Positions 3,260 through 6,446 of a stretch of 11,985 bases of DNA are shown here, in pieces (within the stretch, counting starts at the first letter, position 1; every line of letters begins with the position of its first letter). The stretch is from NCBI RefSeq assembly GCF_019402445.1, contig NZ_SRZM01000065.1, forward strand, positions 1-11,985, written 5' to 3'. A program made the position numbers and the translations under genes. The notes beneath the pieces are model-generated. The model was not told the origin of the DNA. It saw nothing but the letters and a program-made list of their open reading frames with translations, and did no database searches. This stretch comes from Brachyspira pilosicoli. GTDB lineage: Bacteria; Spirochaetota; Brachyspiria; Brachyspirales; Brachyspiraceae.

Positions 3260-4228
3260 TTACCAAATCATTAAAGTAGAACCCCAAGTAAATCCGCCGC
3301 CAAATCCTGTAAGAAGAACTAAATCACCATCATTAATTTTATTATTATCCAAAGCATCAGTTAAAGCTAACCCTATACTTGTTGAAGAACAGTTTCCAAA
3401 TTTATTTAATACAACGCTTACCTTTTCCATAGGAAGACCTATTCTTTTTGCAACAGCCTGCATGATTCTCAAATTAGCTTGATGCGGTACAAAATATTTA
3501 ACATCGCTTAATTGTTTTCCAGTAGATTCTAAAACTTTATCTATGCTATTAGAAAACTCAGTAACAGCTCTCTTAAAAGTTTCAGAACCATCCATATGTA
3601 TTTTAAACTCAGGAGCTTCCAAATCATCAGCCCTTATAGGACAAACACTTCCACCATTAAGAACTATACTCATGTCAGGTTCGCTTTGCATATGCATGCC
3701 TATTATTCCTTTTCCGTCATCTCTTGTTGTAATTAATGAAGCAGTAGCAGCATCTCCAAATAGAATTGCTGTGCCTCTATCTTTCCAGTTAACATCTTTA
3801 GTAAGTTTTTCACTACAAACTATCAGTACATTTTTACATTGTCCGCTTTCTATTAATGAAGTAGCAGTATTTAATGCATATATATATCCAGAGCAAGCAG
3901 CAGATAAGTCTAAAGCAAAACAATGATTAAGCCCTAATGCTTGTTGTAATTGTCCAGCCATAGATGGAAATATATAATCTTTTGTTACAGTAGGAACTAA
4001 TATAGCATCAACTTCTTTTAAATCCACACCTTTTTTTTCTAAGTTTTTAACGGCATTAATTCCCATTTCAAAAATAGTTTCATCAGGTCTTGCCATATGT
4101 CTTGTTTCTATACCTGTACGAGTTACTATCCATTCGTTATTAGTGTCTAATATGCTTTCAAAATATTTGTTGTCTAATATTCTTTCTGGTACATAATAGG
4201 CTATGTTTTTAATGTATGCTCTTTTCAT
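3260..4228 (-). CDS. fabH: 3-oxoacyl-[acyl-carrier-protein] synthase III (FabH)
   Basis: This 322-residue ketoacyl-ACP synthase III condenses acetyl-CoA (or another short acyl-CoA) with malonyl-ACP to start type II fatty acid synthesis. The catalytic triad is complete: Cys112 in LSAACSGY, His249 in VPHQAN and Asn279 in KFGNCSS. The Asn-containing motif reads GNCSSTS where most FabH have GNTSAAS. NEWIVTRTGI (31-40) and the C-terminal LLTGFGGGFTWGS are standard, and the length is normal. The open frame could begin at TTG 4240, but that codon overlaps the GGAG ribosome binding site, so ATG 4228 is the start. The gene stands apart from other fab genes here and has its own likely promoter and terminator. 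The starter acyl group cannot be read from sequence. Confidence 0.95.
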   Translation of the reverse strand: MKRAYIKNIAYYVPERILDNKYFESILDTNNEWIVTRTGIETRHMARPDETIFEMGINAVKNLEKKGVDLKEVDAILVPTVTKDYIFPSMAGQLQQALGLNHCFALDLSAACSGYIYALNTATSLIESGQCKNVLIVCSEKLTKDVNWKDRGTAILFGDAATASLITTRDDGKGIIGMHMQSEPDMSIVLNGGSVCPIRADDLEAPEFKIHMDGSETFKRAVTEFSNSIDKVLESTGKQLSDVKYFVPHQANLRIMQAVAKRIGLPMEKVSVVLNKFGNCSSTSIGLALTDALDNNKINDGDLVLLTGFGGGFTWGSTLMIW

Positions 4229-4234
4229 TGTAAG

Positions 4235-4238
4235 CTCC
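4235..4238 (-). promoter_or_regulatory. Ribosome binding site of fabH
   Basis: GGAG on the minus strand, 6 nt before ATG 4228. It rules out the TTG at 4240, which overlaps it. Confidence 0.8.
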
Positions 4239-4257
4239 AATTTAAATATACTTTTCT

Positions 4258-4286
4258 AGTATAGAATATATTACTTTTAAAAAAAA
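4258..4286 (-). promoter_or_regulatory. Candidate fabH promoter
   Basis: Minus-strand -10 TATACT (4258-4263), with only a T-tract (TTTTTT, 4281-4286) at the -35 position after a 17-bp spacer. Predicted start of transcription is near 4251, leader about 23 nt. The weak -35 suggests either an activator or a T-tract upstream element. Confidence 0.4.
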
Positions 4287-4291
4287 ATGAT

Positions 4292-4309
4292 ATAGTTATT
4301 AGTAACTAT
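4292..4309. repeat. Perfect inverted repeat upstream of fabH
   Basis: ATAGTTA (4292-4298) and TAACTAT (4303-4309) are exact inverted repeats around a 4-nt TTAG. On the minus strand it is followed within a few bases by nine Ts, so it could be a weak second terminator of the encapsulin operon. Its place just upstream of the fabH -35 region also allows an operator. The stem has only one G-C pair. Confidence 0.4.
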
Positions 4310-4336
4310 TTTTTAGTTATACTATTATTATTTATA

Positions 4337-4377
4337 AAAAAAGCAAAAATAAGCTATATGCCTACTTTTGCTTTTTT
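4337..4377 (-). terminator. Intrinsic terminator of the encapsulin operon
   Basis: An 18-bp hairpin: left arm 4337-4354, loop TATAT, right arm 4360-4377. Two positions are A/C mismatches on the plus strand but G-U pairs in minus-strand RNA, so the fold favours the minus strand. The minus-strand stem ends in a T-run. It lies 27 bp beyond the shell gene stop. Confidence 0.8.
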
Positions 4378-4403
4378 ATAATATTTAAAAAATTATTAGG
4401 GTA

Positions 4404-5213
4404 TTATTCTAACACAACAATAGCATTAGGTTCTTTTATTCTAGGCAAAACAGTTTCCATAATTCTAAAAGTATGATTAAGGTCTTTTTGCTCTAAGTAT
4501 GCAGTGGACATATCAACACCAATAGCTAAATCTATATATTGAGGCTCTACACATATAATAGCAGCCTTTTTACCTTTTATTGTAGGTATATTATATAGAT
4601 TATGAATCATATTAGTTATTCTTTGAGCTTCAGTCATGCCAGTACCTTGCTGTATTCTTTGTAAGTCAAAAAATAATCCCTGACTCAAAGCTAATATTAT
4701 TCTTCCAACTATTCCTTTTTCTCTAATCATATTAATAGCTTTTACAATATCAATGTATGGATTTTCGCCAGCAGACCAATCGCTAATTTTTAGTTTTTGT
4801 ACACCTTTAGTATTTAATATTCCAGTAACTCCAACAAACTCATTTCCATAAAAGATTAATTCATCTTCTTTATTTGAAAGAGTTTGTGCTGCAAATGATG
4901 TTACAGATAAATCTAAAGGCATTTTATTTTTTTCATTATTTTCTATATCTCTCCAAAGAAGAGTGAAGTCTTGATATAACTGTGGAAGTTCCACAGAATG
5001 CCTTCCTGAAGTTTTTACTATACCATCTTGAAAAACTTCTTCTCTGTCATTTCTATCATATTGCACGCTTATAGTGCCGGAACCTAAAGGTCCATATATA
5101 CTTAAAAATCTTCTTCCTATTAAAGTTCTGCTTGCAGTTTCTATTACTGCTTTATCTATTTTACTCCAAAAGTCGCTATCAAAAGGCGAACCATCTCTTG
5201 CTAAAAAGTCCAT
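4404..5213 (-). CDS. Family 1 encapsulin shell protein
   Basis: This 269-residue protein has the length and motifs of the HK97-fold encapsulin shell (linocin M18 family), which self-assembles in the cytoplasm into a hollow icosahedral compartment, commonly of 60 subunits. Recognisable blocks are SRTLIGRRFLSIYGPLG (28-44), the region around YQDFTLLWRDIE (80-91, the usual N-arm/E-loop area), EDELIFYG (116-123) and the C-terminal TFRIMETVLPRIKEPNAI. It starts at ATG 5213 with an AAGGAG site 5 nt upstream. It follows the ferritin-like cargo gene by 47 bp on the same strand, which indicates an iron-storing compartment. A peroxidase-type cargo is not encoded nearby. It can be read from the cargo promoter and perhaps from its own internal one. 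No phage structural genes surround it, so it is not a prophage capsid remnant. Confidence 0.95.
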   Translation of the reverse strand: MDFLARDGSPFDSDFWSKIDKAVIETASRTLIGRRFLSIYGPLGSGTISVQYDRNDREEVFQDGIVKTSGRHSVELPQLYQDFTLLWRDIENNEKNKMPLDLSVTSFAAQTLSNKEDELIFYGNEFVGVTGILNTKGVQKLKISDWSAGENPYIDIVKAINMIREKGIVGRIILALSQGLFFDLQRIQQGTGMTEAQRITNMIHNLYNIPTIKGKKAAIICVEPQYIDLAIGVDMSTAYLEQKDLNHTFRIMETVLPRIKEPNAIVVLE

Positions 5214-5247
5214 ATATTCTCCTTTTAAATTTTATTTTATAATATTT

Positions 5248-5275
5248 AGTATAATAATAATTATTCTTTTTTCAA
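5248..5275 (-). promoter_or_regulatory. Candidate internal promoter for the encapsulin shell gene
   Basis: Minus strand: TTGAAA (5270-5275), 16-bp spacer, TATACT (5248-5253). It overlaps the last codons of the cargo gene, and predicted initiation near 5241 leaves a leader of about 28 nt containing the AAGGAG site. It could uncouple shell from cargo expression. Confidence 0.45.
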
Positions 5276-5611
5276 ACTTCCAACTGTAAGACCTGATAAA
5301 TCTGGTTCTTTTATTCCCAACTCTTCCATCATTTCTTTTACTTCCATTTCTCCAGAAGCAAAATGTTCAGCCTCTTTAGGGTCTAAATGTCTTAAAAGAG
5401 CCATAAGTTCACCAACATGAGCCTTTTCTTCATCTCTAATATCAGCGAGTACTGCCTTAGCAACAGGGTCATCTGTAGCCATACAATGAGCATCATATAA
5501 ATATATAGCCTCTAATTCCCCAGCTATATCCAATCTCACAGCCTGTATTAATTCTTCTTTACTAATCTTTCTTTCAACATTTGCATTAAACGGGTTTGCA
5601 AAACTAGGCAT
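5261..5611 (-). CDS. Encapsulated ferritin-like protein (EncFtn) with encapsulin targeting peptide
   Basis: This 116-residue two-helix ferritin-like protein oxidises Fe(II) for storage within the encapsulin shell. Known EncFtn proteins form ring-shaped decamers in which the ferroxidase centre is built between subunits. Glu32 (in AGELEA) and the E-x-x-H pair Glu62/His65 (DEEKAH) sit at the same numbers as the iron ligands described for the Rhodospirillum rubrum protein, as I recall them. Helix 1 is about residues 17-45, helix 2 about 48-74, followed by an acidic linker. The C-terminus GLTVGSLKKE (107-116) matches the LTVGSL encapsulin docking signal. It starts at ATG 5611 with a full AAAGGAGG site 5 nt upstream, so strong translation is expected. 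It is the first gene of the operon, with the shell gene 47 bp downstream. Confidence in function is high. Confidence 0.95.
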   Translation of the reverse strand: MPSFANPFNANVERKISKEELIQAVRLDIAGELEAIYLYDAHCMATDDPVAKAVLADIRDEEKAHVGELMALLRHLDPKEAEHFASGEMEVKEMMEELGIKEPDLSGLTVGSLKKE

Positions 5612-5653
5612 ATTTTCCTCCTTTGAAATACCTAATTATACTAATACAATAAA

Positions 5654-5677
5654 TTACTTATTAATATTAATTACTAA
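5654..5677. repeat. Imperfect palindrome at the EncFtn transcription start
   Basis: A 24-bp inverted repeat centred on TTAATATTAA pairs at 10 of 12 positions. It lies at roughly +1 to +23 of the predicted EncFtn transcript, a position where a repressor would block transcription. It does not match a Fur or PerR box closely enough to name the regulator, and AT-rich DNA makes palindromes common. Confidence 0.35.
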
Positions 5678-5682
5678 TAACA

Positions 5683-5711
5683 AGTATAGTATAAAAAATT
5701 ATAAAAGTCAA
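5683..5711 (-). promoter_or_regulatory. Sigma-70-like promoter of the encapsulin operon
   Basis: Minus strand: -35 TTGACT (5706-5711), 17-bp spacer, -10 TATACT (5683-5688). It is the best-matched promoter in the window. A second TATACT overlaps at 5688-5693 but has no well-spaced -35. Predicted start is near 5676, giving a leader of about 65 nt. Confidence 0.7.
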
Positions 5712-5748
5712 CATATAAAACAAATATAAAAAGAAAAAATGATATATA

Positions 5749-5777
5749 TTTACAAATATTTTTATATTAAGTATAAT
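5749..5777 (+). promoter_or_regulatory. Sigma-70-like promoter of the LUD-domain gene
   Basis: -35 TTTACA (5749-5754), 17-bp spacer, -10 TATAAT (5772-5777). Predicted start near 5784, leader about 33 nt. It is back to back with the encapsulin operon promoter, with 37 bp between the two -35 boxes. Confidence 0.65.
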
Positions 5778-5806
5778 TTATTAGGATATTTAGTTAATTA
5801 TTTTAT

Positions 5807-5810
5807 GGAG
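5807..5810 (+). promoter_or_regulatory. Ribosome binding site of the LUD-domain gene
   Basis: GGAG 6 nt before ATG 5817. It overlaps the in-frame ATG at 5805, and with the promoter it excludes the earlier in-frame ATG at 5739. Confidence 0.75.
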
Positions 5811-5816
5811 TTTTTT

Positions 5817-6446
5817 ATGACTATTCAAGAAGAATATTTTAAGAATTTATCTAGTATATTAAAAACAAATTTCAATAAAAAAGGTTTTGCTTTTGATAGT
5901 TTTGCAAACAAGGAAGAGGCTAAAAAGTTTTTGTTATCTCAAATAAAAAAAGATGATGTTATAACATTCGGTGGAAGCACTAGTGTTAATCAGATGGGTA
6001 TATTAGAAGATTTAAAAGATTATAAAAACTTTATAGACAGAAACAATAAAGAATTAAAATCAGAGGCAGAGATTAAGGCATTTACTGCTGATGTATATTT
6101 ATGTTCTGCTAATGCTTTGAGTAAGAATGGAGATGTTATTGCTATAGATGGAGGCGGAAATAGAGTTTCTGCTATGATTTACGGACCTAAAAAAGTATAT
6201 TTAGTTGTAGGAAGAAATAAAATTGCCAACACTCAACAAGATGCATTAAAGAGAGCTAAAGATTTTGCTGCTTCACAAAACTCTATAAGATTTAAAGTAA
6301 ATAATCCTTGCTGTGTGGGTGATATGGTTTGTAATGAGAATTGCAATATAGAAGATAGATTATGTGCTTATACTGTTATTATAAATAAATGCCATATAAA
6401 AAACAGAATACATATATTATTTATAGATGAAGAATTAGGTTTTTAA
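5817..6446 (+). CDS. LUD-domain protein (LutC/YkgG-like, DUF162)
   Basis: A 209-residue cytoplasmic protein of the LUD family, named after lactate-utilisation proteins LutB and LutC. Family marks are the glycine-rich ITFGGSTSVNQMGI (49-62), the central block DVYLCSANALSKNGDVIAIDG (92-112) and GPKKVYLVVGRNKI (123-136). It is a single-domain form without the ferredoxin-like part of LutB. The C-terminal part has six cysteines (165, 166, 172, 176, 183, 192) in the region CCVGDMVCNENC and beyond, which could bind a metal or Fe-S cluster; that is inference. ATG 5817 is chosen because the promoter and GGAG site exclude the 78-base-longer frame from 5739. No lutA or lutB lies beside it, so a role in lactate oxidation is unproven. 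It diverges from the encapsulin operon and may share control with it. Confidence 0.8.
   Translation: MTIQEEYFKNLSSILKTNFNKKGFAFDSFANKEEAKKFLLSQIKKDDVITFGGSTSVNQMGILEDLKDYKNFIDRNNKELKSEAEIKAFTADVYLCSANALSKNGDVIAIDGGGNRVSAMIYGPKKVYLVVGRNKIANTQQDALKRAKDFAASQNSIRFKVNNPCCVGDMVCNENCNIEDRLCAYTVIINKCHIKNRIHILFIDEELGF

Follow-up and report, generated by a model that had tools for sequence, protein, structure and literature searches.

The Brachyspira pilosicoli stretch analysed here (contig NZ_SRZM01000065.1, 11,985 nucleotides; hereafter the window) carries on its minus strand, at 4333-5711, a two-gene operon composed of a promoter, a 116-codon gene for a ferritin-like cargo protein of the EncFtn kind, a 47-bp spacer, a 269-codon gene for an encapsulin shell, and a hairpin terminator. 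We read it, with a probability of roughly 0.7, as the operon of an EncFtn-loaded family 1 encapsulin that would serve, under a PerR-like repressor, as a peroxide-induced iron sink beside an ordinary ferritin. As a system, the EncFtn–encapsulin pair is of a known and ordinary kind. The novelty lies in a 23-bp dyad upstream of the cargo gene, which the comparison of sequences makes a candidate for a peroxide-type regulatory link of an encapsulin operon.

To our knowledge, encapsulin iron compartments are known mostly by their structures, and their induction in the cell is less clear. If the above reading is true, the compartment would belong to the peroxide response of one gut anaerobe instead of being a plain store, and an operator common to the encapsulin, catalase, rubrerythrin, and superoxide dismutase genes would provide a testable answer on encapsulin induction. 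Our search, outside of which lie subscription papers and supplementary tables, found no earlier report of a regulatory link between the Brachyspira encapsulin and peroxide, and an earlier listing of the genes may exist.

Cargo, shell, and their common transcription unit

The cargo scores 166.1 bits against the NCBIfam model EncB_fam (NF058679, cut-off 90) and 30.4 bits against the Pfam model of the two-helix EncFtn-like domain (PF22277, cut-off 27). It also exceeds the cut-off of Pfam COQ7 (27.6 vs 23.5) and stays under that of TIGR04535 (105.9 vs 125). The initial annotation, made from the letters of the window, had described a 116-residue ferritin-like protein with Glu32, Glu62, and His65 that ends in the docking signal LTVGSLKKE, and the sequence bears this out in full. 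The three residues, which are the iron ligands in the EncFtn of Rhodospirillum rubrum (PMC5012862), stand at those numbers and, like Glu34, Tyr39, and Glu61, are invariant in the 101 aligned cargos, a set made up of every locus that has a cargo frame, with identical copies of some species present twice. Tyr39 is likewise the same in the R. rubrum protein (Rru_A0973), whereas its Glu31, which contributes to the second metal site (PMC5012862), is replaced by Gly in 96 rows and by Ala in 5.

The cargo C-terminus is LTVGSLKKE, and its LTVGSL, retained in 20/20 Brachyspira cargos, matches the targeting consensus published in PMC11202242. A search of the genome for further LTVGSL proteins, which had been proposed at the outset, was made with the back-translated pattern of the exact peptide (looser peptides were not searched) and yielded no second coding site, the sole match at 5274-5290 being the cargo's own; this is a difference from the EncB/EncC cargo of Myxococcus xanthus. 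The encoded cargo retains intact ferroxidase ligands and an intact targeting peptide.

Among solved structures, the nearest relatives of the cargo by sequence are 5n5e (Pyrococcus furiosus EncFtn), 7s8t (M. xanthus EncC), and 2e0z (the P. furiosus fusion), with 7s5c (M. xanthus EncB) and 5da5 and its variants (R. rubrum EncFtn) as further ones. The predicted model (mean predicted local distance difference test score, pLDDT, of 86.4; helices 18-45, 49-76, and 78-97) gives as its first fold matches P. furiosus EncFtn, EncC, R. rubrum EncFtn, and EncB. The P. furiosus protein (PFC_05175) is thus nearest by sequence and by fold, with 41% identity in the fold match to 5n5e. It is fused to its shell (PMC11202242), whereas the cargo here is encoded on its own and carries a targeting peptide; it resembles EncC and EncB in addition. 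The cargo of the Quasibacillus IMEF system is described in PMC11202242 as a four-helix protein that lacks EXXH, in contrast to the E62-x-x-H65 motif found here. In three Bacillota loci (L028, L033, and L061), EncFtn-like frames of 101-107 residues have the ferroxidase residues and lack the targeting peptide, and no shell frame was found in the stretch examined.

The shell reaches 255.9 bits against the NCBIfam equivalog encap_f1 (NF041155, cut-off 100) and 219.6 bits against Pfam Linocin_M18 (PF04454, cut-off 24.3), in agreement with the family 1 encapsulin that had been placed 47 bp after the cargo. Its top sequence matches in the PDB, namely, 9i8e, 9i8f, 9fy6, M. xanthus EncA, and the Quasibacillus IMEF shell 6nj8, lie at 172-177 bits, and the Thermotoga maritima shell is far lower, at 67 bits. 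The predicted model (mean pLDDT 86.7) adopts an HK97-type fold. It matches EncA best (8vjo and 7s2t; template modelling scores of 0.81-0.90 by query length), along with the Bacillota shells of Bacillus methanolicus, Dendrosporobacter quercicolus, and Quasibacillus; EncA has 287 residues as compared with 269 here. The matched EncA chains derive from particles of T=1 and T=3 as well as T=4, the latter in an engineered mutant, and T=4 also holds for the Quasibacillus shell (PMC6668986), because of which a particle bigger than T=1 is likely by analogy. In one of the compared loci (L068:5454-5911), the shell gene appears as two overlapping short frames, that is, a frameshift or a sequencing error.

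The promoter reads TTGACT-17-TATACT (5711-5683). The scan that located it is weak by itself, with 15 sites in 4200-5900 against 11.7 expected, while the TTGAC of the -35 box recurs in 21/21 aligned upstream regions, which represent 20 Brachyspira operons and the outgroup G073. At the other end, 4310-4403 folds with -21.7 kcal/mol (z -4.43; none of 200 shuffles is equally stable); the hairpin at 4333-4380 was picked up by this folding and not by the automatic terminator scan. The one promoter and one terminator of the initial annotation are thereby retained. The cargo adjoins the shell in 20/20 Brachyspira genomes showing both, with a spacer of 10-50 bp, and outside the genus (L013-L081) 66 of 69 loci have a shell-like frame beside the cargo. 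This adjacency holds despite differing neighbours, and the two genes are one conserved unit.

A dyad common to the operon and to peroxide-defence genes

In most of the 21 upstream regions, a dyad with the consensus TTATTArTA-N5-TAyTAwTAA is found between the -10 box and the ribosome-binding site, and it persists where much of the surrounding upstream sequence has diverged. The copy in the window, at 5658-5680, has no mismatches, compared with a chance expectation in the window scan of 0.04 matches at up to three mismatches. Over the 26 Brachyspira genomes, the pattern at up to two mismatches has 193 strand matches against 55 for the reversed control, near-palindromic sites possibly counting once per strand. 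We have also built a weight matrix from 24 hand-chosen sites before catalase, ferrochelatase, flavin reductase, ZIP, RseP, superoxide dismutase, and rubrerythrin genes, leaving out copies from the genome being scored and sites preceding other genes. It finds the dyad 5' of the cargo in 18 of the 20 Brachyspira genomes (scores 18.2-26.0), and in each of these none of 100 shuffles reaches the score.

The genes behind the sites were inspected at all listed positions of the window's genome (G000), the complete genome G011, and G004, G010, G018, and G019, as well as at five of the seven positions of G002, including that of the encapsulin; gene names were assigned by eye save for those scanned against profile families. 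Among the matches listed, the window's genome has nine strand matches at eight positions before seven promoters, those of the encapsulin operon, catalase, ferrochelatase, a HIT-protein gene, superoxide dismutase–rubrerythrin, flavin reductase, and a chemotaxis receptor. At the HIT-gene site, relatives have a ZIP gene on the other side, which here would lie past the contig end. In G011, again among the matches listed, six of the ten positions precede the encapsulin operon, catalase, ferrochelatase, flavin reductase–rubredoxin, ZIP (with HIT), and superoxide dismutase–rubrerythrin. The order of an AT-rich -10 region, dyad, ribosome site, and start recurs at catalase, ferrochelatase, flavin reductase, and one rubrerythrin, and orthologous promoters in different Brachyspira species retain the dyad. 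The ferritin gene was considered as a carrier and rejected, the nearby site being located between the HIT-protein and ZIP genes, with ferritin further on. Taken together, the dyad is a candidate operator common to peroxide-defence genes, defining a candidate genus-wide regulon.

Several further sites were recorded. An RseP-type protease gene is preceded by the dyad in several Brachyspira genomes (L220 by profile scan; L228, L235, and L250 by likeness). In G019, the dyad stands before a NifU-like gene, a gene for a substrate-binding-protein-like product, and one other gene; the first of these (L248:1499-2347) lies 181 bp behind its dyad, and we take the start of its protein to resemble a NifU/IscU-type iron-sulphur scaffold. 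One dyad of G010 precedes the gene for a 564-residue protein and another has no frame start nearby, and one dyad of G018 is inside a frame of 484 residues.

The operon would work as follows. A Fur-family repressor, most likely PerR-like, would bind the dyad and be relieved by peroxide, so that the iron sink would be made along with superoxide dismutase, rubrerythrin, and catalase and the heme for the latter. The compartment would then take away Fe(II), and catalase and rubrerythrin would take away peroxide. Judging from characterised relatives, the cargo ring would oxidise Fe(II), LTVGSLKKE would hold it within the shell, and the shell would store ferric mineral; iron oxidation by EncFtn and storage by the shell are described in PMC5012862 and PMC11202242. 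The choice of a PerR-like repressor, and the part of mrgA given to the encapsulin, follow from analogy to known PerR regulons. In Bacillus subtilis, katA and the hem operon are under PerR repression and the mini-ferritin gene mrgA has a PerR operator (PMC5189952), and Clostridioides difficile PerR represses a rubrerythrin operon (PMC8546684). The peroxide genes of delta-proteobacteria are without the B. subtilis consensus and carry different candidate PerR operators (PMC545781). The B. subtilis regulon has an operator common to catalase, heme synthesis, and an iron-sequestering protein, and the set found here is parallel to it, with the differences that iron would be sequestered by an encapsulin system instead of a mini-ferritin and that regulator and box are putative. 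We see about even chances that in Brachyspira EncFtn–encapsulin has replaced a mini-ferritin of the Dps/MrgA type within a peroxide regulon under PerR-like control, the separate ferritin being left with routine storage.

The genome has other means of handling iron and oxygen. It encodes a 178-residue non-heme ferritin, which scores 131.8 bits against PF00210 and 130.5 bits against NCBIfam PRK10304, below the equivalog cut-off of 178. The earlier statement that the window shows no classical ferritin is correct, but the genome encodes this one elsewhere. Four rubrerythrin-family matches are found, one of them a full rubrerythrin directly behind the superoxide dismutase gene. Rubrerythrin is among the abundant proteins of the B. 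pilosicoli exposed proteome, with the peptide FFEVRVESY (PMC4955376); the L159 rubrerythrin has this peptide at its C-terminus. A heme catalase is encoded by a frame in L223; the protein scanned was its G011 homologue, alike over the 70 residues compared. The remark that no peroxidase cargo lies nearby is extended by the lack of any DyP peroxidase match in the whole genome. The suggestion that iron storage and oxidative protection rest on EncFtn is, however, not upheld, because with ferritin, catalase, superoxide dismutase, and rubrerythrin encoded in the same genome EncFtn is not the sole defence.

Weighing of the alternative readings

A number of observations speak against a PerR-like, peroxide-induced operon. 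No dyad rises above shuffles by the matrix in G001 and G003 (two of the 20 Brachyspira genomes) or in the outgroup G073. The operon is absent from 5 of the 26 Brachyspira genomes, one of which is only 85% complete. The dyad departs from the textbook PerR box, AT-rich palindromes are common by chance in this DNA, and the B. subtilis PerR consensus at up to two mismatches occurs in 7 of the 21 operon upstream regions against 5.25 expected. At the superoxide dismutase gene, the dyad is upstream of the promoter-like site, not after it. The remaining four of the ten G011 positions stand before the genes of RseP, UvrA, and a chemotaxis receptor and before an uncharacterised gene pair, and a site in G004 precedes a GNAT-like gene. 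A regular-expression search of the Brachyspira-group stretches for a Fur-family regulator, with no genome search made, returned one spurious frame only. Finally, the pattern was first drawn from the encapsulin promoters, so that the matrix is not independent of them, and for this reason the functional coherence of the dyad genes is the more independent support.

The failed regulator search and the presence of the dyad at RseP, UvrA, and MCP (chemotaxis receptor) genes would suit another redox or metal sensor, such as Rex or a spirochaete-specific factor, or else a promoter-associated AT palindrome without a regulator. Upstream of the 69 non-Brachyspira relatives, at up to three mismatches, PerR boxes (26 vs 13.85 expected) and Fur boxes (16 vs 4.75) are enriched, and a made-up AT palindrome is as well (32 vs 13.9); because of this control, no conclusion is drawn from those boxes. 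The excess of the dyad over its reversed control, its retention at orthologous promoters across Brachyspira species, and its persistence at the encapsulin promoter while upstream sequence diverges are what such a reading leaves poorly explained, and we regard it as improbable. A different sensor question is raised by the description of EncFtn–encapsulin pairs as iron stores (PMC11202242), by a protein annotated as ferric uptake regulator (Fur) in the B. pilosicoli exposed proteome (PMC4955376), and by the difficulty of separating Fur from PerR boxes in such AT-rich DNA. These would fit a housekeeping store that follows the iron level by way of Fur or some other sensor of iron and has no particular connection with peroxide. 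The dyad genes, which include catalase, superoxide dismutase–rubrerythrin, flavin reductase–rubredoxin, and ferrochelatase, form instead a peroxide-type set. Moreover, a site just past the -10 box suggests repression, and repression of an iron store by iron-loaded Fur would be backwards, which makes control by iron level unlikely in our judgment. The HK97 fold, common to encapsulins and phage capsids (PMC8346489), and a Pfam Major_capside match of 19.2, under the cut-off of 26.8, might even point to a phage capsid remnant with the cargo as a chance neighbour. This we reject as scarcely credible, given the equivalog score far above its cut-off, the conserved adjacency of cargo and shell described above, and the lack of any match over a phage family cut-off among the 10 window proteins scanned.

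Distribution, neighbourhood, and feature coordinates

The host had been tentatively named as Brachyspira, and the cargo is 100% identical to that of B. pilosicoli. The shell is present in 21 and the cargo in 20 of the 26 Brachyspira genomes; in the 21st shell genome (G024), the contig stops at the 5' end of the shell gene, and the cargo region is out of view. Of 392 genomes sampled from the phylum, 42 match the shell family, and in 38 of these the match has E < 1e-60. A ferritin-family match (best E 4.8e-34 or lower) is found in all 26 Brachyspira genomes. The five without the operon are natural comparisons, since they keep a ferritin and since in G010 and G018, the two of them whose sites were inspected, the catalase and superoxide dismutase genes still carry the dyad.

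In a quick tree of 97 shells, chosen by similarity to the cargo and with the root not inferred, the Brachyspiraceae rows form one clade (Shimodaira–Hasegawa-like approximate likelihood ratio support 96) that joins the Deferribacterota rows (98) within a mostly Bacillota set. This placement suggests an old transfer. Mapped on a tree of the LUD gene, where support is mixed and many forks are open, presence and absence of the operon require at least four changes, a pattern consistent with repeated loss.

The neighbourhoods of 17 Brachyspira genomes and G073 were compared (G000, G003, G021, and G024 lie outside this set, the last three being on short contigs). The fabH/LUD neighbourhood of the window's genome recurs in G011, G012, G013, and G016. 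At least three others occur in the genus, in G001, in G019, and in a group with common downstream and differing upstream genes.

Table 1. Features of the encapsulin operon and dyad sites elsewhere in the same genome
Feature	Position	Strand	Basis
Cargo, EncFtn (EncB-family) ferritin-like protein, 116 residues	5261-5611	-	NCBIfam NF058679 and PF22277
Shell, family 1 encapsulin, 269 residues	4404-5213	-	NCBIfam NF041155 encap_f1 and PF04454
Codons of the C-terminal targeting peptide LTVGSLKKE	5264-5290	-	sequence; stop codon 5261-5263
Cargo–shell spacer, 47 bp	5214-5260	-	sequence
Shell ribosome-binding site AAGGAG, inside the spacer	5219-5224	-	sequence
Cargo ribosome-binding site AGGAGG	5617-5622	-	sequence
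23-bp dyad TTATTAGTA-ATTAA-TATTAATAA, candidate operator	5658-5680	-	comparison of upstream regions and motif scans
-10 box TATACT	5683-5688	-	promoter scan, 10/12 jointly with -35
-35 box TTGACT	5706-5711	-	promoter scan and alignment
Intrinsic terminator, hairpin and U-tract, ending the operon before fabH	4333-4380	-	folding
Non-encapsulin dyad sites, window's genome (G000)	C410:8959, C25:5864, C45:7228, C368:11498, C442:17, C42:737		motif search

The fabH gene lies downstream of the operon, past the terminator. On the other side, a LUD-domain gene (5817-6446) is divergent from the operon; the mechanical start of its open reading frame is at 5739, and the ATG at 5817 is the likely start.
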